Of a stretch of DNA of 24,637 bases, positions 10,301 through 24,637 are shown in pieces (the stretch's first letter is position 1; each line of letters starts with the position of its first letter). The DNA lies in the IMG/VR virus record IMGVR_UViG_3300034374_005923, positions 1 through 24,637 of that record. One strand, written 5' to 3'. This DNA comes from a virus. A program made the position numbers and the translations under genes. The notes below the pieces were generated by a model. That model ran no database searches and was not told the DNA's origin. It worked only from the letters and a program-made list of their open reading frames with translations.

Positions 10301-13300
10301 GTTAAGTATGACACAATGCTTGACACAAACTATAACTCTGTAACAGCAGGTAATGCATATTACTTTAAAGCTGCTAAGAACGTAATCGGTGCACAAAGAG
10401 AAGAAACAATTGCTGCATATGAAAGACTACGTTTTTCAACAGACGAGTTGACTCAAGCTAATTCTGCGGTATTTGCTGCAGAAGCTTACGAGAAATTTAA
10501 TGAGATTATTGGTATTCTCAAGAATGACGGTGACAAGTTTACGCCAACTGCGGTAACTTATACACCTTCAACAGGTGACTTTGAGATCACTATAGGTACT
10601 CACAGCCTTGACGTTGGAAGATATATTCTTCTAGAACCAGAAGGATTCACATTTACTTGTGCGACAGATGGTAATGTAGTAAAACTCAAGCACCCAAGAA
10701 AATCGGATCCTGCATTTAAATCAGCACTTCCGATTACATCAACAACAGCAACTACAATTACTGTAAATGTTGGATCTACAGGATATAACGGTGTACATAC
10801 TCTTGTATCTGTAAAAGATAGCGCAGTAGCAGTTCTTGGTTCAGCAATCACATTTAGTGACGACACTGCAATCTCTGCAGATAAACGTAATGCAAGAGCT
10901 AAGCTACAACATAACCGTACTTGGATCCAAAACTATATGATGAACTGGGCTGATGAAGAGTGGTTCTTCTACGATTCAGAAAAATGTCAGAGAGATACAA
11001 AAGAATATATTGTTCCTGCAGCAATGAGAGACATGCAGTTAGGTACAAACTTCAATGCTATCCAAGCTGGTATTGCATATCGTGGTGGAACAAGTAAGAC
11101 TCTACTTACAGATCAGCTTACTGAAACAGTTGGAGCGTTCTCACACTTAAGAGATGAAGTTTCTGATACAATGTCAGATTCTATCGCTATCGCAAAATCA
11201 AAAGATTCGTTTAACGAAATCATCGGTATCATGAATACCGGTGCTAGAAAGTTCACACCAGAAACTGCGACATACGATCCGGTAACTGGTGTAATGACTC
11301 TTACATTGCCAAATCATAGTTATGAAATTGGTGATATGATTATTGTAGAAAAAGAGTCTATCACATTCTCATGTGGTACTCCGGCGGTTGAAATCTCTCA
11401 TCCAAGAGCAACTGATCCTCTATTTAGAAAACCAATGCAAATTACAAATGTTGCCGGCGATGTTATTACAGTTAATGCTGGCGATGCAAATGGTTATACA
11501 GGAGCACATACATTTGTAAGAGCGAAAGCAAATGCTGTTAAAACATATGCTGAAGTAAAACGTAATTATACTCCAACAGGAAGTACTTACGATCCAGCAT
11601 CTGGTAGAACAACATTTGAAATGGTGGGACACAATCTAAGTAAAGGTGATTACATCGTAATTGATGAAACTGCAATCACATATCAGTGTTCTAACAACAC
11701 TCATACTAATGTACAAATCTCACACCCAAGAGTTACAGATCCAATCTTCAACAATATGGTTGAGATTACTGATGTACCAGATGCAAATACAATTGCTATT
11801 GATGCTGGTGCAATCTCAGACGGATATCTAGGTGTACATACATTTGTAAGCGCAGATGCAGACGCTATTAAGCATATGGAATATGCAAGAGGCAACGGAT
11901 ATACTCCAACTGCTGCTACATATAATGTAAACACAGGTATTATGACTGTTACTATTGGTGAGCATGATCTAAGAATTGGCGAAAAAATTAAGATCAACGA
12001 AGGTGCGATGACATTCTCATGTGGTTCACCGGCGGTCGAGATTTCTCATCCAAGAGCATCAGATCCTGCATTTAATACTGATCTAACTATTTCCGCGGTA
12101 ACTGCAGACTCTATTACAGTTAATGTTGGAGATGCTGGTGGATATACTGGTGCGCATACATTCGTAAGAGCAGAACCTTTTGCAATTACATCTTCATCAG
12201 TTTACACTGGTAAGTTTACTCCAAGCACAGGCACATACGATCCTCTAACTGGTGATATGACTTTAGAAATTGGTCAGCATAGCTTACCGGTTGGTAAATA
12301 TGTAATGCTTGCAGATGAAAGCATCAGATTCTCTTGTGCGAATACAACCACAAGTGACATTGGTGAAATTTCACACCCAAGAGATGGCGAACCTGCATTT
12401 AGAAAACCAGTTCGTATTTCAGCAGTTACTGATACTGCAATTACAATGAATGTTGGTAATGCTGGTGGATATACCGGTGCACATACATTCGTAAGTGCTA
12501 AGGTTGATTCAGTAGATACAAATGCCATCTACTGGACAGACCCTGCTAAGGTTGCAAGCTATCATACACCAATAGATGTTGATTATAATCCAACAACAGG
12601 TGATATGATTATCGACTTTGGTGGATCTCATGATTTCACAACTAACGATCATATCGAATTTAAACCGGCAAGTGTTGTACTTTCATGCGTTAATACTGCG
12701 ACTTCTGAAACAATCGAGATTGCTCATCCAAGAATTGGCGAGCCAAATTACGAGTTCCCACTTGAAGTTACAGCAGTTGCTGCAAATACAATCACAGTTA
12801 ATCCTGGCTCAGCAGGTGGATATACAGGTACTCATACATTTGTAAGAGCAGATTATGACGCTGTAGTTAAATTACCAGCAAGAGTTACAAGAAATGGTGC
12901 ACTTGCTCGTAAGCAGCTTCAAGCTAATAAAGCATTCTTGCAAGCTGAAGTCGATGCATGGTTAAAAGATAACTACTTCGTATACGACGACAAGAGATGT
13001 GCTCGTGATACCGGATATATTCTTGATGCTGTACGTCGTGACATGGCTACAGGCTCTAATGTTAACGCAGTATTTGCTGGTTTGGCATATAGAACTGGTA
13101 ATGCAAGCGCTGAAAATGTTGTTAACAATCAACTTACAGAAACAGTTGGTGCGATTACTTGGCTAAAAGGTAAAATCAATACAACAATTACTTCAGGTGC
13201 TGCAGGACTAGCTGCTGACGCTGCATTCGATGAAATCATCGACATCATGAATAACGGTGCAGGCAATGCAAACTCAAGAACATTCGGCACATCTTATGTA

Positions 13301-16300
13301 TCACAAGATACTTTAGACGCAAGAGAACTTCTACAATCTAACAAAGCATTCTTGCAAGATGAAGTAACAGCATGGATCGCAAATACACATCCAGATCTTT
13401 CTTACAACGTAGCAGATTGCGAAAGAGATCTAGGATACTTCATCGATGCGGTATCATGGGACGTACAACACGGCTCAAATGCTGCAACAGTAAATAACGC
13501 AAGAGTTTACTTCGACAATGCTGTAAGTGTACTAGCAGAACAAGAAAAACCAGTAACTGCTGAAGCATATGCTTACATTGCAGATATCGCTGGTGGACTG
13601 GTAAGACAAGAAGTTGTAAGAACACAGCAAAATGCTACAACTCAAACATATGCTAATACACTAACACCTACATTTGCTGCATATAATCCTGTAACTGGAA
13701 TTATGACTCTAACAATTCCAAGCCACGGTCAATCTGTTGGTGATTACATTGTTATTGCAGAAAATGGTATTACATTCCAGTGCGGTTCTCCTGCAACTCA
13801 GATTTCTCATCCAAGAGCAACAGACCCATATTTCAATACACCAATTGAAATTACTAAGGTTGATGGCGATATTCTTACAATGTATGTCGGCACGGCTCAA
13901 GGTTATGCTGAAGCACATACATTTGTTAGTGCAGCAACAGACTGTGTCAGACCATCTGTCGCACCTGCGGTTGGTACAGAAGTTGAGAAACTATTCAGAA
14001 CAATTTCTGACATCATTGAAGAAGATGATTACAAAACAACATTCGGTATTGAAGGTTACGAAGATACAGACGGTTATGTAAGTGGAGGCGAAGGATACGG
14101 TACTGATGGAATCAATACTGGTCTAACAACACCAACTATTAAAGAACCAACTCTATCTGGTACAGGATATGATGCAGCAACAAACGCAATGTTTGAAGAA
14201 ATTGCTGGTGCAACTGCCAAATACCAGACTGAAATTATCGACTATATTAGAGAAACATACAACGGTCTAGCTTATCAAGAAGATAAGTGCCCACGCGATG
14301 TTGGATATATCGTCGATGCGGTTTCAGAAGATCTAGAATACGGTGGAGACTCTGCAACAATCAATGCAGCAAGATACTACTTTGAAGGCGCTATTAATGT
14401 TCTGCCTCTATATCAAAGAGAGCCTACAAGACTGGCATTTGAGCATATCGCTGATCTTATGGAAGATGTTGTTACAGAGACAGCAATTACACCTACAACA
14501 GGTAATGCGCTAACTCAAGATACTTCGGGTCTTCCTGCTGACGCGGCAACTGGTGCAGAAGCTAAGAGATTGGCTAACATCATCTCAAACATTACAGATG
14601 ATCGTCTTGTAATTCCAGAATATACTGGATCTCTTGATATTACTCAGAAACCAGAAGCAAGACTTAAAAATCTTCCATCTGCAAATACAGACATCGCACC
14701 TCTTATCGAGCCATCAAGAACATATGCTCGTAAAGCACTTCAGATGAACAAAGGCTTCATCCAAGATGAGGTTGTTGGATACATCAACGATACTTACTTT
14801 ACATACGATGAAGATAAGTGTGCAAGAGACGTTGGATACATTATCGACGCTGTAAGAAGAGACGTTGAAACAAATAGTGATTACTCAAGTAAGTATGCAG
14901 GTCGTGCTTACAGGGCTGGTAATCCTTCAACAGACACAGTAATTAATGACCAACTTGCAGAAACTATTGAAGCAATTAAGTATGTAAGAAAAGACATCGA
15001 AGCACAGCTTTCAGGCACTGCTCTTACAACAGCTCGCGGTGCTTTTGATAACATCATCAACATTATGAAAGATGGTGTATCAGGTCTAACATATAACTTT
15101 GGAACATCTAGAATTGGTGTTAGCGAAGGTAACTCAACTGACGGCTTGGTTGCTAACAGAACATTCTTGCAAAAAGAAGGTAGAGCATACTTTGAGCAAA
15201 CTTATCCAGTACTTTGGGCAGCTCTTTCAGCTGAGCAAAGAGATAAGTGTGAGCGCGATATCGGTTACATGGTTGACGCGGTAAGCTGGGATATTCGTCA
15301 CGGTTCAAACGTTGCTATGAGAGATGTTGCAAGCCTATACTTTGATCAAGGAACATCAGTTCTACCTGCAGATCAGAAAACAGAAACTGCAGCAATCTTT
15401 GTACATGTAGCAACAGTTGCCGAAAGAATCTTGTTGAAACTTCCTGTAACACCTACAACTGGTAATACTGAAACAGTAAGTACTGCATTCGGTAATGTTA
15501 TTACTCAGGTTGCTCAAGATGTAGAAGATCTATTTAATATCGTATCTAATATGATTACTGAAGATTCTCTCTTTGGTTTACCTGCAGCCGTGTTCCCAGA
15601 TACTGGAGCTGTAGGCGCAACAGGATATGCCGATGCATCAGACGTTGCGAAGATTACAGCACGTAAGACAACACTACAAAACGGTGTTAATTCTCATCTG
15701 CAATCCAAATTTGATTATCTTGAGTACGATTCAGAAAAATGTCGCCGTGACACTGGTTACATGGTTGATGCGATCTCTCATGATATTCAGTACGGTGGTA
15801 ACTCTGCAATGTGGAATGCAGCGCAGATCTACTTTGTTAATATGACAAACCTACTACCGCTTGAGCAAAGAGAACCAACTAAGAAAGCCTTCACACATAT
15901 GGCTGAAGTAATGCGTAAAGTAATCCGCAACGAAGATGTTGATCTAAGAATCGGTAAGCGCTTTACACCTACAAATGCTACATACAATCCTTTAACAGGC
16001 GTGATGGAAGTTACTCTTGGTGCTCATAACCTAGCGGTTGGTGATTACATCATGTTTGAAAAAGAAAGCATTACTTTCGAATGTGGTTCACCTGCTGTAC
16101 AAATCTCGCATCCAAGAGAAACAGATGGTTCTTTCGCTAAGCCGCTAAGAATTGATGCTAAAACAGCAACAACAATTACAGTTCAAGCTGGATACGCTAA
16201 GGGTTATGCTGGAGCACATACATTCGTAAGTGCGACAGACAATGCAGTAAAAGTTATTAGAGGACAATCATTCAAGCAAGACAAGTCATCGTTGGCTGCA

Positions 16301-18271
16301 AGAAGAGAGATTGCTATGGAAGCAAAACATCTTGCACTTATGATTGCTGATATTGCAGATGATAACAATCCTGATAACCTACCTGCACGTATCGAGCCTA
16401 ATATGGATTGGGTACCTTCAATATTTAAGACCGAGAAAGATAAAGTTGACGATGCTCTTGAAGCACTTACAACAAGCATGGTTAACCATATCTCAACAAC
16501 TTATAAAGGTATCAGTTATCCTAAAGAAAAATGTCGTAGAGATGTGGGCATTATGCTCGACGCTATCTCACACGACGTACAATACGAAACAAACTATGCT
16601 ACAAGACTTGCTGCTAATATGTATTTCGACAATGCAACAAGCGTTCTTCCATTCGATCAGCGTCAACAAACTGCTGATTTCTATGAAGAAATGGCAAACT
16701 ACGTCAGCAAGATTATTACTGGTGCAGTTGCTGGTGAAGCAGGTGGTCCATCAGCAGCGACAGCAGTTGAAGGCGAATGGGCTGCAGACATGGTTCATAT
16801 TGTTGAAGAAGCAATTAGAAGAGATGGATTGGATGCAGTTCCTGAGCTTATCGAACCTAACACAGCATGGGTTGATGATAGCAAGGTATCAGCAGGTAAG
16901 ATGATCGATGGAAAACTCGGTGATCTTGCAGATGATGTAACTAAGTTCATCTCAGACAACTTTACTATCGTAGATTACAGCAAAGCTAAGTGTCGCCGTG
17001 ACTCAGGTTACATCATTGATGCTATGAGCTGGGATTTGAACTACGGTGGTAACCTAGCATCTCGCTGGAACGCAGACTTCTATTACTGGAATAACGAACT
17101 TCGTATTCCGGAAGATACAAGAGTTGCAACAGCTCAATCTTATCGTCAACTTGGTAAGATTGTAAGTGATGTTACAGTAGGTAAGTATCCAGGTCAGAAG
17201 CTTCGCCCAGAAATGGGATCTGAAGCTCAGCAAGCGCAAGCAAAAGACTTGGGTATGATTTTCTACAACGCACTATTCTACAACACACCAAAAGCTCTTG
17301 GTAGAACAATTCAACCAGACTTCATGTGGGAAGACAAGAAGAATAAAGCGTTTAGATTCTCAAGAGATATCTTGTTGAATAATAAAGTTGCGCTTCAGAA
17401 AGAAGTACAGAGATTTATTACTTCAACATATAAGTTTATCGATCTACCTAAAACATATCGTGATGCTGGTAACTTAATTGATATTCTACAAAACGATCTT
17501 CGCTTCACAGATCCTTCACAGAACCCAGTAATCGAAGGTTCGGATAAAGCAACGAGATCTTTTGCAGCAGCACTATTCAATATTGATTCACAATCAGTAT
17601 TCCCAGTGTTTAACCCACCAAGCGCGTTTGCTAACTGGAGAGATCTAAGATTTAAAGGTGCTGGTACATTAACAGAACGTGATGCATTAACTAATCCAAA
17701 GAGATGGGATGCATTCGTTGTATCAGCAACAGGCGGATCTAACCCAGATAATAACGATTATGTTGGTGAAATTCATTACTGGAATGGTACTGGATGGATT
17801 GCAAGTGGACATCAAAATAATGTAGATTTGCTAGTATCTTTCTATAAAGCTTGGGAGCGTATGAGAGATTATATAAATACCAATATCGCACCTAACGCAG
17901 CACATAGATCTATGATTACTGAATTGATTGACGACGTATTGATTGATACAGTGTTGAGACCAAACTTCTTGGCATTTGGTTCGCTTGTTGAATCGATTGC
18001 CCACCAGTTTAACGGCGCATCTGCAGGTGTTAACAGAAATGCGTTGCCGCTAAACTTTAGAAACGTTGGTGCTGCAATTGGTGCTACCGCTTCTGTTCTT
18101 TCAGAAGATGGTGGTAGAATTAGATGGTCCGGTTCTGACGAATTGAACAACCAGTACTTCGCAAGAGGACTGAGAATCAACGGTAGAACAGGACGTATTG
18201 AAGGTAGACCGTTTACGTCATCGGTCAGAAAACTAGCTAGAAGAGCTTCTAACAGTAGGGCAGTACTATAA
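7376..18271 (+). CDS. giant 3631-aa modular virion protein (beta-helix plus alpha/beta repeat modules)
   Basis: The ATG follows TAAGGG (7361-7366) at 9-base spacing. Residues 1-45 resemble fibre-attachment segments (SKISELGP, LFVIVNLIQGDDG, ITRKELVQAI). Residues about 48-390 are an Asn/Ser/Thr/Asp-rich repeat (patterns such as NSTIDDS, NVTITNS) expected to coil as a parallel beta-helix, akin to pentapeptide repeats. Residues 420-800 start with KVYVSADGDDDNDGTLLRPVQTLKRA, typical of DUF1565/pectate-lyase-like right-handed helices. From about 780 to 3430 two module types alternate. The alpha module (about 140-150 aa) has a KC-x-RD-x-GYIxDAV core, with Cys at 825, 964, 1204, 1875, 2015, 2305, 2482, 2625, 2789, 3053 and 3206, plus a Cys-less copy near 3358. 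The beta module (about 100 aa) runs from FTPT-x-x-TYxPxTG through ISHPR to GYTGAHTFVSA, in eight copies. The unique C-terminus holds RIRWSGSDELNNQYFARGL. It is probably a tail-fibre or whisker-like virion protein. Similar modules occur in marine T4-like phages as I recall; the function is unproven. Confidence 0.8.
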   Translation: MSKISELGPITGANTRPEDLFVIVNLIQGDDGTKNITRKELVQAIQYEIFNRITITGGTIRNVSMSDSTLTSVTINTSTFTNGRIETTRFIGGSLEGSTGINLEIANSDFSDGTGNNNVFTHTTIDLGRITNSSANNITMSQSVITGSQFNDGTGNNVTLTNSTIDDSEYNNVTIDQGTANGLILTNITIDEIILEDAFMSNSTIVTTNFSNGDIFDAEIYGNTQIWDVAISNSDIRDTDLDNVVITRSIFANGTIYDTEISNSNIFDTTANNIVITNSELNDSTANNTSLVNSDFSDGTGNNNVFTNTTIDQSTVQNSVIANSAFQGTMENTVAENMTINNSAATELQQNKSTFTDGNVEDSLISNSTIDDSKLVDFDMDLTKKFEAPIDEDSYFALKNVKTGDVEQMTYRQLYDEFSRKTEKALKVYVSADGDDDNDGTLLRPVQTLKRAEELALEKAGGSYNRNDINNAVHISVGPGTYYVDEPISLPDDCSLTSTAGQYATVIQKKPGWERTNGIQVGSGCYVQGFSYMNFEVDNFDHPEGGFAIVYRPGALMRRSPYIRDSSQLSNFNRLDVEPPLNPFNSKGTIYDLGQEFYVTNVVGQANFEIDDEVVFSSGATGFISYIDDLPNTVHVRNLKGNVEPGDILTAQRGGTAEVVRLGIDDFPNRLIGRGGGCALMDRAVLDTDSLYTYLLCFGFTPRTQNGTGYVAKNGAGINGIGSLSIFTRQAFFALDGGQVTLNNSGSQFGDISMRASGKTTIVKPAEAASAVLLSNTDFADALAENKQAIVDDMVHFLTANTTHPASSLNSDVGLGYQGYNADKCFRDTGIIVENTGLDIATKGNYWGRLNGITYRSPISYVVVNEQLDETVGSIEHLKDSIEHIFRNANTEVNDRVSTSIDETLNILKNGEEFANNIIFTDTGNAPATAAREVVQDNREFIIEEFIDWLDNNEEFYAYDSAKCKRDVREFILPAVKYDTMLDTNYNSVTAGNAYYFKAAKNVIGAQREETIAAYERLRFSTDELTQANSAVFAAEAYEKFNEIIGILKNDGDKFTPTAVTYTPSTGDFEITIGTHSLDVGRYILLEPEGFTFTCATDGNVVKLKHPRKSDPAFKSALPITSTTATTITVNVGSTGYNGVHTLVSVKDSAVAVLGSAITFSDDTAISADKRNARAKLQHNRTWIQNYMMNWADEEWFFYDSEKCQRDTKEYIVPAAMRDMQLGTNFNAIQAGIAYRGGTSKTLLTDQLTETVGAFSHLRDEVSDTMSDSIAIAKSKDSFNEIIGIMNTGARKFTPETATYDPVTGVMTLTLPNHSYEIGDMIIVEKESITFSCGTPAVEISHPRATDPLFRKPMQITNVAGDVITVNAGDANGYTGAHTFVRAKANAVKTYAEVKRNYTPTGSTYDPASGRTTFEMVGHNLSKGDYIVIDETAITYQCSNNTHTNVQISHPRVTDPIFNNMVEITDVPDANTIAIDAGAISDGYLGVHTFVSADADAIKHMEYARGNGYTPTAATYNVNTGIMTVTIGEHDLRIGEKIKINEGAMTFSCGSPAVEISHPRASDPAFNTDLTISAVTADSITVNVGDAGGYTGAHTFVRAEPFAITSSSVYTGKFTPSTGTYDPLTGDMTLEIGQHSLPVGKYVMLADESIRFSCANTTTSDIGEISHPRDGEPAFRKPVRISAVTDTAITMNVGNAGGYTGAHTFVSAKVDSVDTNAIYWTDPAKVASYHTPIDVDYNPTTGDMIIDFGGSHDFTTNDHIEFKPASVVLSCVNTATSETIEIAHPRIGEPNYEFPLEVTAVAANTITVNPGSAGGYTGTHTFVRADYDAVVKLPARVTRNGALARKQLQANKAFLQAEVDAWLKDNYFVYDDKRCARDTGYILDAVRRDMATGSNVNAVFAGLAYRTGNASAENVVNNQLTETVGAITWLKGKINTTITSGAAGLAADAAFDEIIDIMNNGAGNANSRTFGTSYVSQDTLDARELLQSNKAFLQDEVTAWIANTHPDLSYNVADCERDLGYFIDAVSWDVQHGSNAATVNNARVYFDNAVSVLAEQEKPVTAEAYAYIADIAGGLVRQEVVRTQQNATTQTYANTLTPTFAAYNPVTGIMTLTIPSHGQSVGDYIVIAENGITFQCGSPATQISHPRATDPYFNTPIEITKVDGDILTMYVGTAQGYAEAHTFVSAATDCVRPSVAPAVGTEVEKLFRTISDIIEEDDYKTTFGIEGYEDTDGYVSGGEGYGTDGINTGLTTPTIKEPTLSGTGYDAATNAMFEEIAGATAKYQTEIIDYIRETYNGLAYQEDKCPRDVGYIVDAVSEDLEYGGDSATINAARYYFEGAINVLPLYQREPTRLAFEHIADLMEDVVTETAITPTTGNALTQDTSGLPADAATGAEAKRLANIISNITDDRLVIPEYTGSLDITQKPEARLKNLPSANTDIAPLIEPSRTYARKALQMNKGFIQDEVVGYINDTYFTYDEDKCARDVGYIIDAVRRDVETNSDYSSKYAGRAYRAGNPSTDTVINDQLAETIEAIKYVRKDIEAQLSGTALTTARGAFDNIINIMKDGVSGLTYNFGTSRIGVSEGNSTDGLVANRTFLQKEGRAYFEQTYPVLWAALSAEQRDKCERDIGYMVDAVSWDIRHGSNVAMRDVASLYFDQGTSVLPADQKTETAAIFVHVATVAERILLKLPVTPTTGNTETVSTAFGNVITQVAQDVEDLFNIVSNMITEDSLFGLPAAVFPDTGAVGATGYADASDVAKITARKTTLQNGVNSHLQSKFDYLEYDSEKCRRDTGYMVDAISHDIQYGGNSAMWNAAQIYFVNMTNLLPLEQREPTKKAFTHMAEVMRKVIRNEDVDLRIGKRFTPTNATYNPLTGVMEVTLGAHNLAVGDYIMFEKESITFECGSPAVQISHPRETDGSFAKPLRIDAKTATTITVQAGYAKGYAGAHTFVSATDNAVKVIRGQSFKQDKSSLAARREIAMEAKHLALMIADIADDNNPDNLPARIEPNMDWVPSIFKTEKDKVDDALEALTTSMVNHISTTYKGISYPKEKCRRDVGIMLDAISHDVQYETNYATRLAANMYFDNATSVLPFDQRQQTADFYEEMANYVSKIITGAVAGEAGGPSAATAVEGEWAADMVHIVEEAIRRDGLDAVPELIEPNTAWVDDSKVSAGKMIDGKLGDLADDVTKFISDNFTIVDYSKAKCRRDSGYIIDAMSWDLNYGGNLASRWNADFYYWNNELRIPEDTRVATAQSYRQLGKIVSDVTVGKYPGQKLRPEMGSEAQQAQAKDLGMIFYNALFYNTPKALGRTIQPDFMWEDKKNKAFRFSRDILLNNKVALQKEVQRFITSTYKFIDLPKTYRDAGNLIDILQNDLRFTDPSQNPVIEGSDKATRSFAAALFNIDSQSVFPVFNPPSAFANWRDLRFKGAGTLTERDALTNPKRWDAFVVSATGGSNPDNNDYVGEIHYWNGTGWIASGHQNNVDLLVSFYKAWERMRDYINTNIAPNAAHRSMITELIDDVLIDTVLRPNFLAFGSLVESIAHQFNGASAGVNRNALPLNFRNVGAAIGATASVLSEDGGRIRWSGSDELNNQYFARGLRINGRTGRIEGRPFTSSVRKLARRASNSRAVL
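9720..10500 (+). repeat. alpha modules 1-2 of the giant protein
   Basis: Two divergent helical modules, with core Cys at residues 825 (DKCFRDTG) and 964 (AKCKRDVR). They share the layout NKxxIxxE, an acidic/aromatic turn, KC-x-RD and a long amphipathic helix, but are less alike than the later copies. Edges are approximate. Confidence 0.6.
10535..10830 (+). repeat. beta module 1 of the giant protein
   Basis: Residues about 1054-1151: KFTPTAVTYTPSTG, then a single Cys (FTCATDG), KHPRKSDPAF and GYNGVHTLVS. It is the most divergent of the eight copies, with LKHPR in place of ISHPR. Confidence 0.7.
10880..11200 (+). repeat. alpha module 3 of the giant protein
   Basis: A single helical module between beta module 1 and the beta array. 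The core is EKCQRDTKEYIVPA with Cys1204, followed by AGIAYRGG and DQLTETVGAF. Edges are approximate. Confidence 0.65.
11249..12891 (+). repeat. tandem array of five beta modules (2-6)
   Basis: Residues about 1292-1838. Five consecutive copies of about 105-120 aa each run from (K/Y)xTP through TYDPxTG, an SCG- or SCAN-type Cys, ISHPR or IAHPR (near residues 1341, 1449, 1557, 1666, 1783) and GYTGAHTFVRA. The DNA of the GGATATACTGGTGC-type segment is similar in several copies, so some duplication may be fairly recent. No helical module interrupts this array. Confidence 0.8.
12895..13640 (+). repeat. alpha modules 4-5 of the giant protein
   Basis: Two adjacent helical modules with Cys1875 (RCARDTGYILDAVRRD) and Cys2015 (CERDLGYFIDAVSWD), 140 residues apart. 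Both begin LQxNKAFLQxEV. The first continues with AGLAYRTGN and QLTETVGAI; the second with YFDNAVSVL. This shows two subtypes, RRD/AGxAYR and SWD/YFD, that recur later in the protein. Confidence 0.75.
13658..13956 (+). repeat. beta module 7 of the giant protein
   Basis: Residues about 2095-2193: LTPTFAAYNPVTGIMTLTI, QCGSPATQISHPRATDP and GYAEAHTFVSA. It is inserted between alpha modules 5 and 6 and is close in sequence to modules 2, 4 and 8. Confidence 0.75.
14190..15930 (+). repeat. alpha modules 6-9 of the giant protein
   Basis: Four helical modules in a row with core Cys at residues 2305, 2482, 2625 and 2789. Linkers of 20-50 residues rich in Thr/Ala/Asp separate them (for example VTPTTGNTETVS). 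The copy at 2482 is the RRD/AGRAYR subtype; the others are the SWD/SED/SHD-YF subtype. Edges are approximate. Confidence 0.7.
15959..16266 (+). repeat. beta module 8 of the giant protein
   Basis: Residues about 2862-2963: FTPTNATYNPLTGVMEVTL, ECGSPAVQISHPRETD and GYAGAHTFVSA. This is the last beta copy, isolated from the array and flanked by helical modules. Confidence 0.75.
16420..17600 (+). repeat. alpha modules 10-12 of the giant protein
   Basis: Two clear copies with Cys3053 (EKCRRDVGIMLDAISHD) and Cys3206 (AKCRRDSGYIIDAMSWD) are followed by a decayed copy near residue 3358, where KTYRDAGNLIDIL replaces the Cys-containing core. The last copy leads into the unique C-terminal domain. Confidence 0.65.
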
Positions 18272-18696
18272 TGGCAATTACAACGATATCAACATCACAG
18301 GCGCCCGACGCAAAACCGGTCGCCAAGAATTTAACATTAACGACGAACTGGCAAACCCTTATCGAAGTGCCCAACTACGAAGTTCCTGAGCTCGTTTTTG
18401 GCGGCTCTAATGTGGTTGAACCGGGTGTAGGCGAAGTTATCAGTCCTTTGATTATATGTAATTTCTCAGCAAATACTGTAAATGTAGATGTACGTACACA
18501 TAGATACGACTTAAACCAGGAATTTTACGTAATAAGAAACATGCCGATTCCGGCATATGACACCTTCGCTTTGCCTTTAAACGGACAATTCTTTGCATCA
18601 GGTGATTTGTTGGAAATTAAAGCGTCTGCAAACTTATCTTGTGATGCTACATTGTCGTTCACATTAGGTCAAAGTGAGGAAGACGATGTCGAGTAG
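18271..18696 (+). CDS. small beta-rich virion-associated protein
   Basis: A 141-residue protein that starts inside the giant gene's stop (TAATG) and whose end overlaps the following fibre gene by 11 bases. The sequence suggests a beta-sandwich: a Thr/Ala-rich N-terminus, then alternating hydrophobic strands (PLIICNFSANTVNVDV, MPIPAYDTFALPLNGQ, FASGDLLEIKASA, ATLSFTLGQ) and an acidic tail SEEDDVE. Similar small proteins sit beside fibre genes in marine T4-like phages as far as I remember, with no assigned role. The double overlap points to coupled translation and fixed stoichiometry with the neighbouring fibre, so an adaptor or fibre-associated protein is plausible. No signal peptide or catalytic motif is seen. 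Confidence 0.75.
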   Translation: MAITTISTSQAPDAKPVAKNLTLTTNWQTLIEVPNYEVPELVFGGSNVVEPGVGEVISPLIICNFSANTVNVDVRTHRYDLNQEFYVIRNMPIPAYDTFALPLNGQFFASGDLLEIKASANLSCDATLSFTLGQSEEDDVE

Positions 18697-21600
18697 ATTT
18701 AGAAGCCTTAGAGGTCGCACAACTCTTATAGGACAGGGCGTACCCCAAGATTATACGACGCTTGATCCTGCGGCGCACGAAGGATCTATTGTCTATACAA
18801 CTGCTGGGCAGATGCGCTACTCAGATGGTACTAACTGGGTACTTTTTGATGCAGCTGCGGCAACTTCTCAAGGCACCCAAGGTGTCCAAGGTGTTCAGGG
18901 CTTACAAGGTGACTACGGTCCAGGATTTACAATCATTGGATCTGTCGCTGATGTAGATGCCGGTGGCGACCCCCAGGCCACATTGAACGCCGCTTTTTCA
19001 AGTCCTAACATCGGCGACGGTGTTATTGACGAAGCTGATGATGAACTATGGATCTATGTTGGCTCAAACACTTGGGTAAACATTGGTTCTTTCCGTGGTG
19101 TACAAGGTTTTACTGGTAATCAAGGCGTACAAGGTAATCAAGGTACTATCGGTGAAGAAGGTATTCAAGGTTCTCGTGGTTTCCGCGGGCAACAAGGTGT
19201 TCAGGGTATCCAAGGCTATAAAGGCATCCAAGGTACACAGGGTATCCAAGGTACTCAAGGTACTCAAGGTCCACAAGCTTACCAAGGTGTACAAGGTATT
19301 CAGGGCGTACAAGGACTTCAAGGACTTCAAGGTATTCAAGGTCCACAGGCTTATCAAGGTGTCCAAGGTATCCAAGGTTGGTATGGTTTTCAAGGTTTTC
19401 CCGGCGACGACTCAGGAATGGTTGTCTCATATAATGTATCACATGAATTTGCAGAACCATCTCCTGCTACTAGCGGGTTTATGTATTTCAATTCTCCGGC
19501 TGCTGATACAGGAGCACTTACCGGTGCAACTAAACTTTGGATTGCAGAAAACGATACGTTTAACGTAGATTTAACAGGTTATTTTACAGCTATTGATTCT
19601 TCATCATCTGCTAATAAAGCATACATGAAAATCACATTACGTGATAATCCATCTAAATATGTTATCTTTTCAATACAAGAACTTACTGACGATGGCAACT
19701 ATTGGGATATGGATGTAACGTACCTATCGGGTACTGCTGTAAAGGAAGATTTTGTCGCTGAAGATCTGCCAGGCAATCCAGGTACTTATATTTCGCTTCC
19801 TTGTATTGTAGCATTTAATATTGCTGGTGATCGTGGTTTCCAAGGCATTCAAGGACCACAAGGTACTCAAGGCGTACAAGGATGGCAAGGTGTACAAGGT
19901 GTACAAGGTCCTCAATCAGCTCAAGGTACACAAGGTTTCCAAGGTTGGCAGGGTACACAAGGTACTCAAGGATTACAAGGCCGTCAAGGTACGCAAGGAC
20001 CACAGTCTACTCAAGGTGTTCAGGGTACACAAGGTGTACAAGGATTTAGAGGAAACCAAGGTGTACAAGGCTACCAAGGTGTTCAAGGTCGCCAAGGCAC
20101 CCAAGGTGTTCAAGGCGGATTCGGTACTCAAGGTGCTCAAGGCTACCAAGGTGTTCAAGGAGTTCAAGGTACCCACGGCGAGCATGGTGGTCTAACATTT
20201 GAGTGGGCATTTGACAGCGGTACCGCTACATCAGATCCTGGCACGAATAACTTTAGATTCAACAACTCGGATCCTACCCAAGCAACAAGAATTATTCTAG
20301 ATGATATTCCTTCTGATCAATATTCAAATCAGATTGACGAGATTCTAGATTATTTGGCTGGACTCCCAGGTACTCCAAAAGGTCATATCATTGTTTCACA
20401 CGCAGGTGGAGACGGTGACGGTCCTGGCGGTCATCATTTTGCTGCTTACTCATTCTCTAACTTTACTTGGGATTCAGTTTCTAAAAACTGGGGTTACTTT
20501 GACGTAACAAATATCGAAAGTACAGTTACAAACTGGCAAACACAAGTCGTTGATACACATGACGAATTTGCTATCATTAACTTTATTCCAGGCGGTCCTA
20601 TCGGCCCACAAGGTGTTCAAGGCGCACAGGGTACTCAAGGAACACAGGGTGCACAAGGTACTCAAGGCGTACAGGGTGTACAAGGTCCACAAGCATATCA
20701 AGGTGTGCAGGGTACTCAAGGCTTCCAAGGTATGCAAGGCTTTGAAGGAGCCCGTGAGTTTACGGTTACCAATAATGGATCTACAGACTATGTAATTGAC
20801 GGAGTAAATGATCCTGATCTGCATCTTCTAAGAGGATTTACATACGTATTTGATATTAATGCAGTAGGTCATCCATTCCAGATTAGAGTATCTAATGGTG
20901 GTGCTGCATACAATACAGGCGTAACAAACAACGGCACAGATAATGGTAAGCTAGTATTCAGAGTTCCATTTAATGCTCCAGACTCGTTGTACTATCAGTG
21001 TACAGTACACGGCGCAATGGGTGGAAACATTACTACTTCCGAGGTTGGTCCACAAGGTATTCAGGGTATTCAAGGTACTCAAGGTATACAAGGCTGGTAC
21101 GGTTTCCAAGGTACACAGGGTATGCAAGGTTTCCAAGCCGCTCAAGGTATCCAAGGTGATCTTGGTTTCCAAGGTGTGCAGGGCTTCCCAGGCCAAGTTG
21201 GTCCACAAGGTGCTCAAGGTACATTTGGTTTCCAAGGTGCTGACGGTGCTCAAGGTTCTACAGGTAGCTTTGGTGGTGTAACATTCGATTATACTTGGTC
21301 AACAAACACAGCAACATCAGATCCTGGTGTTGGTTATGCTAAGATTAATAACGCAAATGGATCTTCTGCTACACTTCTTTTGATGGATGATCGTGATGAT
21401 AACTTCACAGACATTCAGCCATATCTAAGAACTATAGATGATTCCACAAGTGCCATTAAAGGTCACGTTAAGATCACTGAAAAGCAAACACCTGCTAACT
21501 TCCAACTATATACTATCAGTGGAGTAACGGAAGCTTCAGGTTATTTTGCCATCGATGTTTCTTACGTATCTGGTTCTGTAGGTGGTTCATTTGCTAATGA

Positions 21601-23437
21601 CGAAGATATTACCATTACATTTGCTAGAACTGGTGACGTCGGTGATCCAGGCTCGCCTGGTCCTGCTGGTATCCAAGGTCCTCAAGGAACTCAAGGTGTT
21701 CAGGGTTTCACAGGTGCGGGCACACAAGGTATTCAAGGTGATCAAGGTGTACAAGGTTTCCAAGGTCCTTCAGGTACTCTAGGTGCTCTTGGTCCACAAG
21801 GTCCACAAGGTACTCAAGGTGTACAAGGTGTTCAGGGCGCTGATGGTGTTCTTGGTGGAGATGGTATCCAAGGTTTCCAAGGTATCCAAGGTACACAGGG
21901 TATAACTGGGCAAGGCGTCCAAGGTGTTCAAGGTTTTGCTGGACAAGATGGTATTGGTGGATCTGGTCTTCAAGGTAACCAAGGTACGCAAGGTGTTCAG
22001 GGTGCTCAAGCTTCGCAAGGTACACAGGGTATCCAAGGTGATTCAGGTACAGGTTTCCAAGGTACGCAAGGTCCACAGGGTCTTCAAGGTACTGACGGTG
22101 AATCTGGTCCGCAAGGTTTCCAAGGTACGCCGGGTGACGGTAACCAAGGTGCTCAAGGTTTCCAAGGCCAAACTGGTGATCCTGGCTTCCAAGGCGCTCA
22201 AGGTATGCAAGGTGGACCTGGTGTAGGAACTCAAGGTTTCCAAGGTTTTGATGGATATCAAGGTTTCCAAGGTCCTGGAGGCGAAGGTAACCAAGGTGTA
22301 CAAGGTATCCAAGGCTTTATTGGAGCTGGTGCAATTGGTAACCAAGGTACGCAAGGTCCACAGGGTATGCAGGGTACTGCCGGCGATGAAGGTGTCGGAG
22401 GTGTTCAAGGTTACTATGGTTTCCAAGGTGCTGATGGTATTCAAGGTTTCACTGGTGGTCCTGGTGAAGGCGGTAGCCAAGGTGCTCAAGGTACTCAAGG
22501 TTGGTATGGTTTCCAAGGCCCAGACGGCGGTGGTGGTATACAAGGTCTTCAAGGACTTCAGGGTACACAAGGTCTTCAAGGTAATTTTGGTTTCCAAGGC
22601 TTCACTGGTGCTGGTGCACAAGGTATTCAGGGCACACAAGGTATCCAAGGTGAGCTTGGCTTCCAAGGTATTCAGGGTACTCAAGGTTTTGGTAACGAAG
22701 GTGGTGTAGGTAACCTACAAAACGTTCACACAACTGCTCTTCAAGATACTGCACTCTTTATCGCAATGTTTGAAGGTGGCGCTGAGCAAAGACCTCTACT
22801 TGGTACTACTGGTCCAAACCCAGGCGGTGAATCTAACTTCTACTATCAATCAGATGTAGATACACTTTATATTGAAAACCTAGAGCTTGGTGGCAACCTT
22901 ACAGTTAATGGCACAACAACATCCGGAGCTGTAACAGGTATTACATCGGACATGAACTTCCCGAATGATGTTTATGCTACATTCGGTACTAGCGCTGTAA
23001 TGAAACTCGGTTACGAGTCTGCGACAGGTAACTTCTTGTTTGATGCAACGACTTCAGTCCAACAATTCTCAATTGAAAACCAAGCGAATGGAACAGCATG
23101 GTTTACATTTGGTCTGGGATCTGGAGGCGGTAACTTTACTGCAACTGGTGACGTTACAACAAACTCTGATATTAGATTGAAAGAAAACATCGAAACAATT
23201 TCTAACGCTCTAGATAAAGTAGAAGCTATGAGAGGTGTTTACTTCCATAAGAAACATGATCCTGATGTTAGAAGAATCGGTCTCATTGCCCAAGAAGTTG
23301 AACAAATCATTCCAGAAGCTGTTATTGAAGATGATAGCGAAGATAAAATTAAGTCTGTATCTTACGGAAACTTGGTTGGTCTTCTCATCGAAGCAGTTAA
23401 AGAACTTAAAAAAGATTTAGACAAATTCAAGGGGTAA
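18686..23437 (+). CDS. collagen-like tail fibre with cupredoxin-like insert and S74 chaperone
   Basis: The ATG at 18686 (1583 aa) is preferred to the in-frame GTG at 18674 because GAGGAAG lies just upstream of it. Domains: 1-62 attachment (SIVYTTAGQMRYSDGTNW); 63-80 short collagen; 81-137 small domain (GDGVIDEADDELWIYVG); 138-240 collagen; 244-382 insert D1; 383-500 collagen; 501-636 insert D2; 639-688 collagen; 690-786 cupredoxin-like; 787-860 collagen; 863-984 insert D3; 985-1340 collagen; 1341-1493 beta-rich; 1494-1583 S74 chaperone with Ser1494/Lys1499 (SDIRLKE). D1-D3 look like one paralogous family. The collagen is Gln-rich (GVQGIQGTQG-type), roughly 230-240 Gly-x-y triplets in all. The expected product is a trimeric rod with bulges, host-facing, with its C-terminal 90 residues removed after folding. 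Annotation as a fibre is secure; the roles of the inserts are not. Confidence 0.88.
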   Translation: MSSRFRSLRGRTTLIGQGVPQDYTTLDPAAHEGSIVYTTAGQMRYSDGTNWVLFDAAAATSQGTQGVQGVQGLQGDYGPGFTIIGSVADVDAGGDPQATLNAAFSSPNIGDGVIDEADDELWIYVGSNTWVNIGSFRGVQGFTGNQGVQGNQGTIGEEGIQGSRGFRGQQGVQGIQGYKGIQGTQGIQGTQGTQGPQAYQGVQGIQGVQGLQGLQGIQGPQAYQGVQGIQGWYGFQGFPGDDSGMVVSYNVSHEFAEPSPATSGFMYFNSPAADTGALTGATKLWIAENDTFNVDLTGYFTAIDSSSSANKAYMKITLRDNPSKYVIFSIQELTDDGNYWDMDVTYLSGTAVKEDFVAEDLPGNPGTYISLPCIVAFNIAGDRGFQGIQGPQGTQGVQGWQGVQGVQGPQSAQGTQGFQGWQGTQGTQGLQGRQGTQGPQSTQGVQGTQGVQGFRGNQGVQGYQGVQGRQGTQGVQGGFGTQGAQGYQGVQGVQGTHGEHGGLTFEWAFDSGTATSDPGTNNFRFNNSDPTQATRIILDDIPSDQYSNQIDEILDYLAGLPGTPKGHIIVSHAGGDGDGPGGHHFAAYSFSNFTWDSVSKNWGYFDVTNIESTVTNWQTQVVDTHDEFAIINFIPGGPIGPQGVQGAQGTQGTQGAQGTQGVQGVQGPQAYQGVQGTQGFQGMQGFEGAREFTVTNNGSTDYVIDGVNDPDLHLLRGFTYVFDINAVGHPFQIRVSNGGAAYNTGVTNNGTDNGKLVFRVPFNAPDSLYYQCTVHGAMGGNITTSEVGPQGIQGIQGTQGIQGWYGFQGTQGMQGFQAAQGIQGDLGFQGVQGFPGQVGPQGAQGTFGFQGADGAQGSTGSFGGVTFDYTWSTNTATSDPGVGYAKINNANGSSATLLLMDDRDDNFTDIQPYLRTIDDSTSAIKGHVKITEKQTPANFQLYTISGVTEASGYFAIDVSYVSGSVGGSFANDEDITITFARTGDVGDPGSPGPAGIQGPQGTQGVQGFTGAGTQGIQGDQGVQGFQGPSGTLGALGPQGPQGTQGVQGVQGADGVLGGDGIQGFQGIQGTQGITGQGVQGVQGFAGQDGIGGSGLQGNQGTQGVQGAQASQGTQGIQGDSGTGFQGTQGPQGLQGTDGESGPQGFQGTPGDGNQGAQGFQGQTGDPGFQGAQGMQGGPGVGTQGFQGFDGYQGFQGPGGEGNQGVQGIQGFIGAGAIGNQGTQGPQGMQGTAGDEGVGGVQGYYGFQGADGIQGFTGGPGEGGSQGAQGTQGWYGFQGPDGGGGIQGLQGLQGTQGLQGNFGFQGFTGAGAQGIQGTQGIQGELGFQGIQGTQGFGNEGGVGNLQNVHTTALQDTALFIAMFEGGAEQRPLLGTTGPNPGGESNFYYQSDVDTLYIENLELGGNLTVNGTTTSGAVTGITSDMNFPNDVYATFGTSAVMKLGYESATGNFLFDATTSVQQFSIENQANGTAWFTFGLGSGGGNFTATGDVTTNSDIRLKENIETISNALDKVEAMRGVYFHKKHDPDVRRIGLIAQEVEQIIPEAVIEDDSEDKIKSVSYGNLVGLLIEAVKELKKDLDKFKG
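19097..19405 (+). repeat. collagen-like block 2 (Gly-x-Gln repeats)
   Basis: Residues 138-240. Gly-x-y triplets with y mostly Gln; the DNA is a degenerate 9-base repeat based on CAAGGT. Ala replaces Gly at 198 and 222 in a PQAYQ context. The block ends in an aromatic GWYGFQG element. Confidence 0.85.
19832..20185 (+). repeat. collagen-like block 3
   Basis: Residues 383-500. About 39 triplets in one register, rich in GTQG and GVQG, with Ser in place of Gly at 411 and 441, both after PQ. It separates inserts D1 and D2. Confidence 0.85.
20600..20749 (+). repeat. collagen-like block 4
   Basis: Residues 639-688. A short block between insert D2 and the cupredoxin-like domain, with Ala in place of Gly at 670 in a third PQAYQ context. 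Confidence 0.8.
20753..21043 (+). other. cupredoxin-like domain inside the collagen fibre
   Basis: Residues 690-786, about 97 aa, the size of plastocyanin or amicyanin. It starts FTVTNNGSTDYVIDG, continues with LLRGFTYVFDINAVGHPFQI and a strand with KLVFRVP, and ends APDSLYYQCTVHGAMGGNI. His729, Cys772, His775 and Met778 occupy the positions of the four type 1 copper ligands, with Cys-x2-His-x2-Met as in amicyanin. Counted from Phe692 the ligands are 38, 81, 84 and 87, close to plastocyanin's 37, 84, 87 and 92. The fold call is by motif and spacing only; copper binding is not shown. Confidence 0.7.
21044..21265 (+). repeat. collagen-like block 5
   Basis: Residues 787-860. Triplets between the cupredoxin-like domain and insert D3, including GWYGFQG near 803-808 and Ala in place of Gly at 818. 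Confidence 0.8.
21638..22705 (+). repeat. long collagen-like block 6
   Basis: Residues 985-1340, the longest block. Unlike the earlier blocks it contains many Gly-x-Gly register slips (for example near 1010, 1075, 1121, 1150, 1179 and 1199), a GYYGFQG and a GWYGFQG element, and one Ala substitution at 1109. DNA-level repetition of CAAGGT is dense. Confidence 0.85.
23165..23434 (+). other. S74 intramolecular chaperone domain, copy 2
   Basis: This segment encodes residues 1494-1583 of the collagen fibre, 90 aa as in copy 1. Ser1494 and Lys1499 of SDIRLKENIETISNALDKV, then GLIAQEVEQIIPEAV and GNLVGLLIEAVKEL, match the family. It keeps the Arg between Ser and Lys that copy 1 lacks. Confidence 0.85.
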
Positions 23438-23460
23438 TTGCAGATTAAATCTCGACTTTG

Positions 23461-23486
23461 AAGGGGGTTGCTAACACCCCCTTTTT
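23461..23486 (+). terminator. rho-independent terminator after the collagen fibre gene
   Basis: AAGGGGGT (23461-23468) pairs with ACCCCCTT (23476-23483) around a 7-base loop, followed by T residues to 23486. It lies 24 bases after the fibre stop and just before the next late promoter, so it most likely ends the 7376-23437 transcript. Confidence 0.85.
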
Positions 23487-23502
23487 CAAACCATCATTTT
23501 AT

Positions 23503-23510
23503 TATAAATA
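23503..23510 (+). promoter_or_regulatory. T4-type late promoter (TATAAATA)
   Basis: An exact TATAAATA, 25 bases before the ATG at 23536 and directly after a terminator. It is the second of the two well-placed copies in the window, both ahead of a gene after a gap, which supports gp55-type late transcription in this phage. Confidence 0.82.
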
Positions 23511-23535
23511 AAGAAAAAAGCAAAAGAGATTTAAA

Positions 23536-23862
23536 ATGGGATCCAAAGCAAATATCTATATAGATCAAGGTACAGATTTCCGTCTATCCTTAGAGCTATT
23601 CGACGAAGACAATGACGAGATGGTTCTCAGCACGATCACGTTTCATGCAGATATGCGTAAGTTATACTCGTCCAAAAAAGCAGTAGATTTTGATATTGAA
23701 ACTGCTAATAATGACGTAACCCTAGTACTTTCAGCAGATACTACGGCTACTTTAAATCCCGGAAAATACCAATATGATGTGTTAATGAAGAAGGCCACCG
23801 GAGAAACGTCTAAGCTCCTAGAAGGACTTGCGACAGTAGTTCCTACTATAACGGAGGTATAA
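23536..23862 (+). CDS. small structural protein, BppU N-terminal-like (tentative)
   Basis: A 108-residue protein, first gene of the unit driven by the promoter at 23503, with AAGAGA as ribosome site. It is beta-rich: IYIDQGTDFRLSLELFDED at the N-terminus, an ADMRKLYSS segment near 36-44, VTLVLSADTTATLNPGKYQYDV near 64-85, and LEGLATVVPTITEV at the end. This pattern is widespread in phage baseplate/tail regions and resembles the N-terminal domain of BppU-type proteins that seat receptor-binding proteins. Its place directly before a fibre gene fits an adaptor or fibre-socket role. No enzyme motif is seen. The family link is by eye and tentative. Confidence 0.75.
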   Translation: MGSKANIYIDQGTDFRLSLELFDEDNDEMVLSTITFHADMRKLYSSKKAVDFDIETANNDVTLVLSADTTATLNPGKYQYDVLMKKATGETSKLLEGLATVVPTITEV

Positions 23863-23865
23863 CCC

Positions 23866-24637
23866 TTGGCTATCAAATTAAAGGTTAACTCCCAAACAAA
23901 CTCAGTAAGACTTGTAGCAGCCGGAGAAAAAAAGCCTCTTATAACACCAGATTCAGTTGCGCTTGGTGCAGATACAACCGGCAATTATATTGCTAATATA
24001 ACAGCCGGAGACGGTATTGTTGTAACTCCAAATCAGATAGAAACAGCAAACGTAGAAGTTTCTCACGCTGATACATCGTCACAAGCAAACACGAATAACA
24101 CAGCTCTCGGTCTACTTAACAATGTTACAGTAGATCAGTTTGGGCATCTTACAGCTGTTACTAATGCTGAGTTAAGTACATCAAACTTCTCGGCCGCCAA
24201 CGGCGTTATTTCTTCTCAATCAATTAGCTTTGCAAATACAACACTTAATCTAGGTGATAATACATCAACACTAGATGGTTTGTCATTTACTAATGTTGGA
24301 TCTATAGCAGGTCCAAACAATGACGTTTCATTTAGTAATAATAGACTTATCAATGTTGCACCGCCACAAGCAAATACAGACGTTGTAACGCGAGAATATC
24401 TATCTGACGAATTAGTTGCTCTTGAATTAACTGTTCGTGTTGTTGAGGATCCAGTAGATCCACGAGACGCCGCAAACAAAAGATATGTTGACAATACTGC
24501 TCAAGGTCTTATTGTAAGACCTTCAGCTCTTGCCGCAACAACAGCAGATCTTGGCGGTACTTTTGCTTCCGGTAATACAACTATCGGTGCGACAATTACG
24601 ATTCCTGCAACGGCAGTTCTAGATATTGACGGTGTTA
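23866..24637 (+). CDS. long tail fibre-like protein, TTG start (3' partial)
   Basis: The frame is open from TTG at 23866 to the window end (257 full codons) with no in-frame ATG near the start. GGAGG (23853-23857) lies 8 bases upstream, a strong Shine-Dalgarno that decides the TTG. The N-terminus reads (M)AIKLKVNSQTNSVRLVA. Residues about 44-90 contain GNYIANITAGDGI, VSHADTSSQA and DQFGHLTAVT, elements I know from long tail fibres of T4-like marine phages. Later come RLINVAPPQANTDVVTREYL and DPRDAANKRYVDNTAQGL near 166-215, the familiar fibre motif of a 'DA-x-x-KRYVD' step before a repeat domain. The protein is probably much longer and continues past the window. Function: distal or proximal host-binding fibre, from the sequence pattern. 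Confidence 0.82.
   Translation, partial: MAIKLKVNSQTNSVRLVAAGEKKPLITPDSVALGADTTGNYIANITAGDGIVVTPNQIETANVEVSHADTSSQANTNNTALGLLNNVTVDQFGHLTAVTNAELSTSNFSAANGVISSQSISFANTTLNLGDNTSTLDGLSFTNVGSIAGPNNDVSFSNNRLINVAPPQANTDVVTREYLSDELVALELTVRVVEDPVDPRDAANKRYVDNTAQGLIVRPSALAATTADLGGTFASGNTTIGATITIPATAVLDIDGV

Follow-up and report, generated by a model that had tools for sequence, protein, structure and literature searches.

The stretch of DNA analysed here (the window) is a 24.6-kb virus record (IMGVR_UViG_3300034374_005923) that contains a tail and structural gene block of a T4-type phage, and the element in question is a small domain within its tail fibre gene. This gene (18674..23437, + strand) begins with GTG and encodes a fibre of 1587 amino acids, or of 1583 if the ATG at 18686 is taken as the start. 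The fibre consists of a collagen-like shaft, inserted non-collagen domains and, near its C-terminal end, an S74 intramolecular chaperone assigned by Pfam (residues 1498-1550; 23165..23323, + strand). Its Pfam matches were Collagen (1.1e-76, in 12 stretches) and Peptidase_S74 (3.7e-16), and it also matched PHROG tail fibre families. Between collagen segments, in mid-shaft and not at the fibre tip, lies a domain of ~97 residues (694-790; 20753..21043, + strand), as delimited by the homologue alignment and the predicted fold. Sequence and model together make it probable that the collagen-type tail fibre contains a true cupredoxin as a folded module and that the type 1 copper site of this domain is intact.

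The original prediction, which had been made from the DNA letters alone, named four candidate copper ligands, and all of them are present; their numbers rise by four with the earlier start. The first is His733 (729 in the 1583-residue numbering; 20870..20872), which lies in the motif G-H-P-F and is supported by the sequence and by the pairing of the corresponding column of the gp9-type profile (described below) with the ligand His of plastocyanin and, depending on the setting, of amicyanin. It is followed by Cys776 (772; 20999..21001), His779 (775; 21008..21010) and the axial Met782 (778; 21017..21019), all on the + strand and all three assigned from the sequence and profile alignment. The spacing C-x2-H-x2-M occurs once in the fibre, which contains only two Cys residues, and is missing from the eight other window genes examined. 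Chance origin of the Cys motif was not favoured: when the residues of the fibre were shuffled 20,000 times, the motif appeared in one shuffle, and together with a His 38-48 residues before the Cys in none. A relaxed search of the window revealed no second copy of the domain.

Predicted fold

AlphaFold2 was given the window domain together with 47 relatives from viral contigs (48 sequences) and returned a model with eight strands and no helix at high confidence (mean predicted local distance difference test score (pLDDT) 95.5; predicted template modelling score (pTM) 0.88). When this model was searched against the PDB with Foldseek, 42 matches were obtained at E<=1e-3, and all 50 matches listed were cupredoxin-fold copper proteins, including rusticyanin, AcoP, amicyanin, pseudoazurin, plastocyanin, Cu nitrite reductase and laccase. 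A second structure aligner, VIA, superposed the model on the N-terminal part of Hyphomicrobium nitrite reductase (Z 11.3, root mean square deviation 2.2 over 91 residues) and on rusticyanin (Z 10.6, 2.0 over 91 residues). The window domain is thus predicted to adopt the Greek-key beta-sandwich of the cupredoxins, as had been proposed. Predicted proteins of giant viruses (pithovirus- and marseillevirus-labelled) in BFVD also matched the phage domain model, with E values from 2e-8 to 6e-6; five of six such proteins are named 'beta-sandwich protein'.

Distribution in phages and the gp9 connector

The domain is far from confined to the window. A tblastn search at E<=0.01 detected it in 355 of 50,697 phage records, and 347 of these have Synechococcus, Prochlorococcus or cyanophage in their names. 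In PHROGs, it matched positions 308-408 of the 412 in phrog_677 ('baseplate wedge tail fiber protein connector') with an E value of 1.4e-30. In eight phages (S-ShM2, Syn30, S-WAM1, S-RIM2, S-IOM18, S-SSM5, P-RSM6 and S-TIM4) the protein that carries the annotation gp9 or tail fibre connector ends with this domain; the gene that follows is annotated as a baseplate wedge subunit in four of them and as hypothetical or unknown in the others. The gp9 label is sound, because the N-terminus passed the Pfam cut-off for T4_gp9_10_N (PF07880) in all three proteins scanned and a profile of 58 full gp9 sequences matched T4 gp9 (residues 7-144) at 1.6e-9. Positions 327-406 of 408 in the same full-length profile matched amicyanin at 1.2e-3. 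The AlphaFold2 model of a cyanophage gp9 was poor as a whole (pLDDT 80.2, pTM 0.40) and confident in the C-terminal domain (block means of 91-96 over residues 301-408); of its 50 listed PDB matches, again copper proteins, four reached E<=1e-3.

Among the matches listed, most PHROG families and annotated proteins with the domain belong to the tail, as fibre, connector or other components. It was also found in an Autographiviridae phage (P-SCSP2), a Pelagibacter phage and a methylotroph phage. Within a set of 97 copies, 32 were flanked by collagen, 41 were internal without collagen and 24 were C-terminal without collagen. Eight open reading frames (ORFs) hold two or three copies of the domain (L039, L096, L114, L134, L150, L159, L160 and L179); in L039 the ligands are kept in one copy and lost in the other. 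On the basis of these sequence comparisons, the domain is a virion module widespread in marine phages. Its most regular form ends gp9, the protein that in T4-like cyanophages connects the baseplate to the long tail fibres. The proposal that a cupredoxin-like domain sits within a phage collagen fibre was confirmed, whereas the placement turned out not to be special to this fibre, since the same domain also ends the gp9 connector of marine phages.

Sequence links to cupredoxins and register of the ligands

Taken singly, the window domain gave no significant cupredoxin match by phmmer, and its best PDB match, capsid VP1 (0.18), was regarded as noise. Profiles of its relatives were therefore needed. 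A profile of 97 diverse relatives from the window's own subfamily (A2) reached Cu nitrite reductase at 0.0029 and plastocyanin at 0.02, and one built from 54 gp9 C-terminal domains reached amicyanin at 3.9e-4. Two single phage domains also made links, that of S-H9-1 to rusticyanin (7.8e-4) and that of S-CAM4 to plastocyanin (0.0064). One of the 97 relatives matched PF00127 at an E value of 4.1e-5 and may pass the cut-off of that family.

To place the ligands against known type 1 sites, three profiles (A1, A2 and A4) were aligned with amicyanin, plastocyanin and rusticyanin, each globally and locally (18 alignments). All 18 paired Cys and Met with the known ligands, and 16 also paired the second His, which was missed in both alignments of A1 with rusticyanin; the C-x2-H-x2-M spacing, which had been predicted to equal that of amicyanin, does so. 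Both settings tried with the gp9 profile placed Cys, second His and Met on the ligands of amicyanin and plastocyanin. The first His of this profile fell on the plastocyanin ligand throughout, on the amicyanin ligand in one of two match-column settings, and on the rusticyanin ligand in the global alignment only. Among the 97 relatives, no His before the Cys other than that of GHPF is nearly invariant, so this residue was taken as the probable first ligand.

Conservation and joint loss of the ligand set

The original prediction supposed that homologues would not freely lose the ligand set, and two samples drawn without regard to the ligands bear on this. For the first, viral contigs were scanned for the start of the gene that follows gp9, and the ORF ending there was taken. 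At least 120 sites were obtained; three without an ORF and 13 duplicates were dropped, leaving 104 unique C-termini, every one of which keeps all four ligands. A regular expression for a His followed by C-x2-H-x2-M recognised 98 of them, and the six cases with longer loops were judged by eye: four have C-x4-H-x2-M (C-G-I-P-S-H-x-x-M), similar to azurin and rusticyanin, and two have C-x2-H-x3-M (C-T-I-H-E-T-N-M). Among the 103 C-termini of at least 110 residues, 12 of 127 columns are invariant, and the four ligands are among the 12. The ligand Cys is the protein's only Cys in 72 of 78 unique full-length gp9 sequences, so an intramolecular disulphide cannot explain its conservation in those 72 and was not favoured as the reason for it.

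The second sample was drawn with the loop Y-N-T-G-V-T-N-N, which in the window (YNTGVTNNG, 20909-20935) sits between the first His and the Cys. This loop is nearly invariant in the window's subfamily, a conservation overstated by the use of the motif in sampling, and is absent from the gp9 sequences read. At least 119 sites yielded 108 unique sequences after six truncated and five duplicate ones were dropped. One hundred had both the first His and the Cys-His-Met group, eight had neither by regular expression, and none had only one of the two. Of these eight, one (L185) is unrelated and two (L142 and L146) carry an insert. A set of 170 rows, from which L185 and the two interrupted domains were left out, contains 163 that keep all four ligands and seven that have lost the first His, Cys and second His together. 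When the ligand columns were left out of tree building, five changes were required at each of these three positions, and the changes fall in the same rows. It should be noted that 16 of 173 match strings were unscored owing to a gap at one ligand position; the twelve listed comprise truncated contigs and ligand-less or interrupted copies (L111, L112, L116, L135, L142, L146, L148, L167 and L180).

The ligands were also all kept, as judged by eye, in 21 of 21 annotated phage copies fetched, which we had chosen from the matches listed for 355 and 377 records, and in five of five copies from bacterial genomes. The best 80 of 531 relatives had partly been found with ligand-containing patterns and were not used alone for conservation. 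At the level of sequence, these losses show that the fold can do without metal, and they suggest that where the ligand set is kept, it is kept as a set. Because gp9 proteins keep the set throughout and the first His, Cys and second His are lost together, these comparisons support the earlier view that the four ligands are maintained by selection for a metal site rather than by mere reuse of the fold. Of the checks proposed with the original prediction, the analysis covered the fold, the hidden Markov model search and conservation among homologues, and within these no outcome that would have refuted the prediction appeared.

Several observations weigh against this interpretation and against the identification of the site in general. 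First, the window domain alone reached no Pfam or NCBIfam cupredoxin cut-off. Its sole Pfam match at E<=1 was PF25489 (15.2 bits versus a cut-off of 27), it had no match to PF00127, and it scored 12.4 bits against the NCBIfam amicyanin model, whose cut-off is 110.2; as judged by its sequence, it is not filed in PF00127 Copper-bind or in the NCBIfam amicyanin, plastocyanin or rusticyanin families. Forty relatives were also scanned one by one, and each stayed under the Copper-bind cut-off (best 19.8 bits versus 21.2), although one of them (L177) passed that of another family, DUF4352 (26.3 versus 25.9). The best score of a singly scanned relative against NCBIfam rusticyanin was 24.8 versus 146.7. 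Across the 97 relatives, PF25489 was the commonest Pfam match at E<=1 (48), and Copper-bind accounted for 23. The links of the A2 profile to the PDB are also weaker than those of the gp9-type profile.

Second, the first His, which had been placed at the expected distance, falls in register with known sites only in part: the gp9 profile agrees with plastocyanin, whereas in the window-type profiles A1 and A2 this His was out of register or uncovered in 12 of 12 alignments, by two residues in plastocyanin, mostly two in amicyanin and, for A2, nine in rusticyanin. Our overall confidence was lowered slightly because the register of this residue depends on the profile and the settings. Third, within the window's subfamily many non-ligand columns match the ligands in conservation. 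Fourth, only two of the five joint losses fall on well-supported branches, and with these two pairs the test of correlated loss is under-powered and not significant (sign test, p 0.5). Finally, the first half of L146 keeps GHGF while lacking C, H and M, a partial exception to joint loss.

These results bear directly on the alternative that the fold has been reused without metal, as an adhesion or spacer module, with the His, Cys, His and Met kept for packing or by recent descent. The seven ligand-less rows, which indicate that metal is not needed everywhere, speak for it, as do the equally conserved other columns of the subfamily and the uncertain first-His register of the window-type profile. 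It accords poorly with the retention of all four residues in gp9 despite changes in loop length, with the frequent presence of the Cys as a sole Cys, and with the loss of the first His, distant in sequence from the C-H-M loop, together with Cys and second His (L146 excepted). We regard reuse without metal as quite improbable.

Probable metal binding and its possible roles

Copper binding is the most economical explanation, because the order, the spacing and the loop variation of the ligands are kept in a fold whose known members hold copper. It is very likely, judging from sequence and model, that the domain binds copper or a copper-like soft metal. A different metal (Zn, Fe or Ni), or Cu(I) only with no working type 1 centre, would agree with the fact that cupredoxin sites can bind other metals in vitro and with a case that so far consists of sequence and a predicted fold. 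The ligand set, its order and the loop lengths all match copper cupredoxins, and this alternative seems to us very doubtful.

If copper is bound, it would be held by the domain within the virion, and particles of the window phage and of related ocean phages may carry it. One difficulty is that fibres are put together in the cytoplasm, which contains little free copper. Loading would then be expected after release from the cell, late in lysis or in seawater, precisely because the site of assembly is poor in copper. A further reservation is that sequence alone is silent on the metal's task. Since the domain lies mid-shaft in the window fibre and at the fibre socket in gp9, a role at a joint or bulge is suggested, in which the metal would lock a small beta module of the fibre apparatus. 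There would be three copper sites per window fibre if the collagen shaft is trimeric, and the gp9 sites would lie at the fibre socket. Given binding, we consider such a metal-stabilised joint a serious possibility, with chances slightly short of even.

Two other roles have to be weighed against the metal-stabilised joint. In one, the metal site or the surface of the domain would bind a component of the host outer membrane, possibly a metal-uptake receptor (a 'Trojan horse' idea), of which an iron version is in print, according to excerpts of PMC11705849. The prevalence of tail proteins among the matches described above fits such docking, as does the finding that in 29 of 97 copies the ORF ends within 12 residues of the domain. 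A position at the receptor-binding tip is weakened for the window fibre, because 794 residues of the ORF, the S74 domain included, follow the domain; moreover, the gp9 copy belongs to a baseplate connector rather than a fibre tip, and the window fibre has no HxH iron motif. Docking is, on balance, unlikely.

In the other, the copper centre would exchange an electron at the cell surface and thereby gate fibre movement or baseplate triggering. The ligand set kept is that of an electron-transfer cupredoxin. Excerpts of PMC2984593 give gene 9 as the baseplate socket and report light-dependent adsorption of several marine cyanomyoviruses, which makes the idea testable; excerpts of PMC5931967 hold nothing on the adsorption mechanism. 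Against the proposal, the link to light is a coincidence of two facts only, and the domain is also present in phages whose hosts may not be phototrophs. We hold such redox gating to be rather improbable. In its most far-reaching form, ocean T4-like phages would bear a ring of type 1 copper centres at the gp9 fibre sockets of the baseplate, with more along the fibres, and the redox or loading state of the copper would gate fibre deployment or tail triggering. This picture is a long shot; if true, it might be related to the light dependence reported for the adsorption of marine cyanophages.

Relatives in bacterial genomes and the possible host of the window phage

Five relatives (L198 to L202) were found in bacterial genome assemblies, one of which (L198) is a phage contig. 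A Bdellovibrionales relative (L202, 4842-5282) is a free-standing protein of 146 amino acids with, by eye, a lipoprotein-like N-terminus, encoded among housekeeping genes, and a Flavobacterium relative (L200, 3789-5318) carries the domain at the end of a CHRD-repeat protein. Both have all four ligands. These two look like ordinary secreted proteins and may point, on sequence grounds, to a cellular origin of the domain.

The phage contig L198 was binned in a Rhodobacteraceae genome and is colinear with window genes 7376-24636. At the other end of the window, the large structural gene 106-3750 is closest to the Sinorhizobium T4-type phages phiM7, phiN3 and phiM12 (34.5-34.6% over 99%). Because of these two observations, the host of the window phage may be an alphaproteobacterium rather than a cyanobacterium, and perhaps no phototroph at all. 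The phage collection contained no DNA-level relative of the window and no protein match to gene 5184-6689. Window positions 7376-18271 encode a structural protein of 3631 amino acids; its residues 259-326 match a pentapeptide repeat, and it contains repeated stretches akin to phrog_701 and phrog_5342. The preceding gene (18271-18696) is overlapped by the fibre ORF with its GTG start; with the ATG at 18686 the overlap is 11 bases.

Comparison with known systems

Neither the cupredoxin fold nor its site is new, whereas their use as a conserved domain of virions appears to be: searches of the open-licence PMC literature brought up no account of a cupredoxin or type 1 copper site in phage tails. 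Should the site prove real, it would be a constant component of the fibre apparatus in a large group of marine phages. Each virion would then have a metal content open to measurement, fibre proteins could be followed by spectroscopy, infection might depend on copper, and seawater would contain a copper ligand of a new class. PHROGs names phrog_677 only as a connector, and its C-terminal domain would gain a fold and a likely cofactor.

Metal has likewise been proposed as a part of other phage fibres. In T4 gp37 and Alteromonas phage R22Y, octahedral iron is held by His-x-His motifs (excerpts of PMC11705849), whereas the window domain would use a single-chain Cys/His/His/Met site. The window fibre was rejected as an iron fibre of this type, since no two of its 16 His positions are two apart. 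A phage-encoded cupredoxin is also known from cyanophages in the form of petE (excerpts of PMC3037559 and PMC2984593), but this plastocyanin is a separate photosynthesis gene and not a virion domain. Plastocyanin matches at E<=1e-3 were found in 400 of the 50,697 phage records, and each of the 12 listed is annotated as plastocyanin; no annotated plastocyanin was among the 60 matches listed for the window domain. Capture of cyanophage petE in a fibre was not favoured, petE being annotated as a separate gene among the matches listed.

Cyanophage gp9 (phrog_677) shares with the window fibre the same domain of ~100 C-terminal residues and the same ligands. The two differ at the other end: cyanophage gp9 starts with the T4 gp9/gp10 N-terminal domain (PF07880), which the window fibre, with Collagen and S74 as its only Pfam domains, does not have. 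T4 gp9 (PDB 1qex and others) is matched by the N-terminal part of cyanophage gp9 over residues 7-144 of 288, and the last part of cyanophage gp9 matches amicyanin instead.

The closest parallel is with the type 1 cupredoxins (amicyanin, plastocyanin, rusticyanin and azurin), which have in common with the phage domain the predicted fold and the four ligands in the same order. Amicyanin has the C-x2-H-x2-M loop of the phage domain, and the C-x-I-P-S-H-like loop of azurin and rusticyanin is found in 4 of 104 gp9 proteins. These cupredoxins are soluble, exported and free-standing electron carriers, whereas the phage domain is part of a virion fibre or baseplate protein, internal in the window to a 1587-residue collagen/S74 fibre, with a sequence below the family cut-offs.

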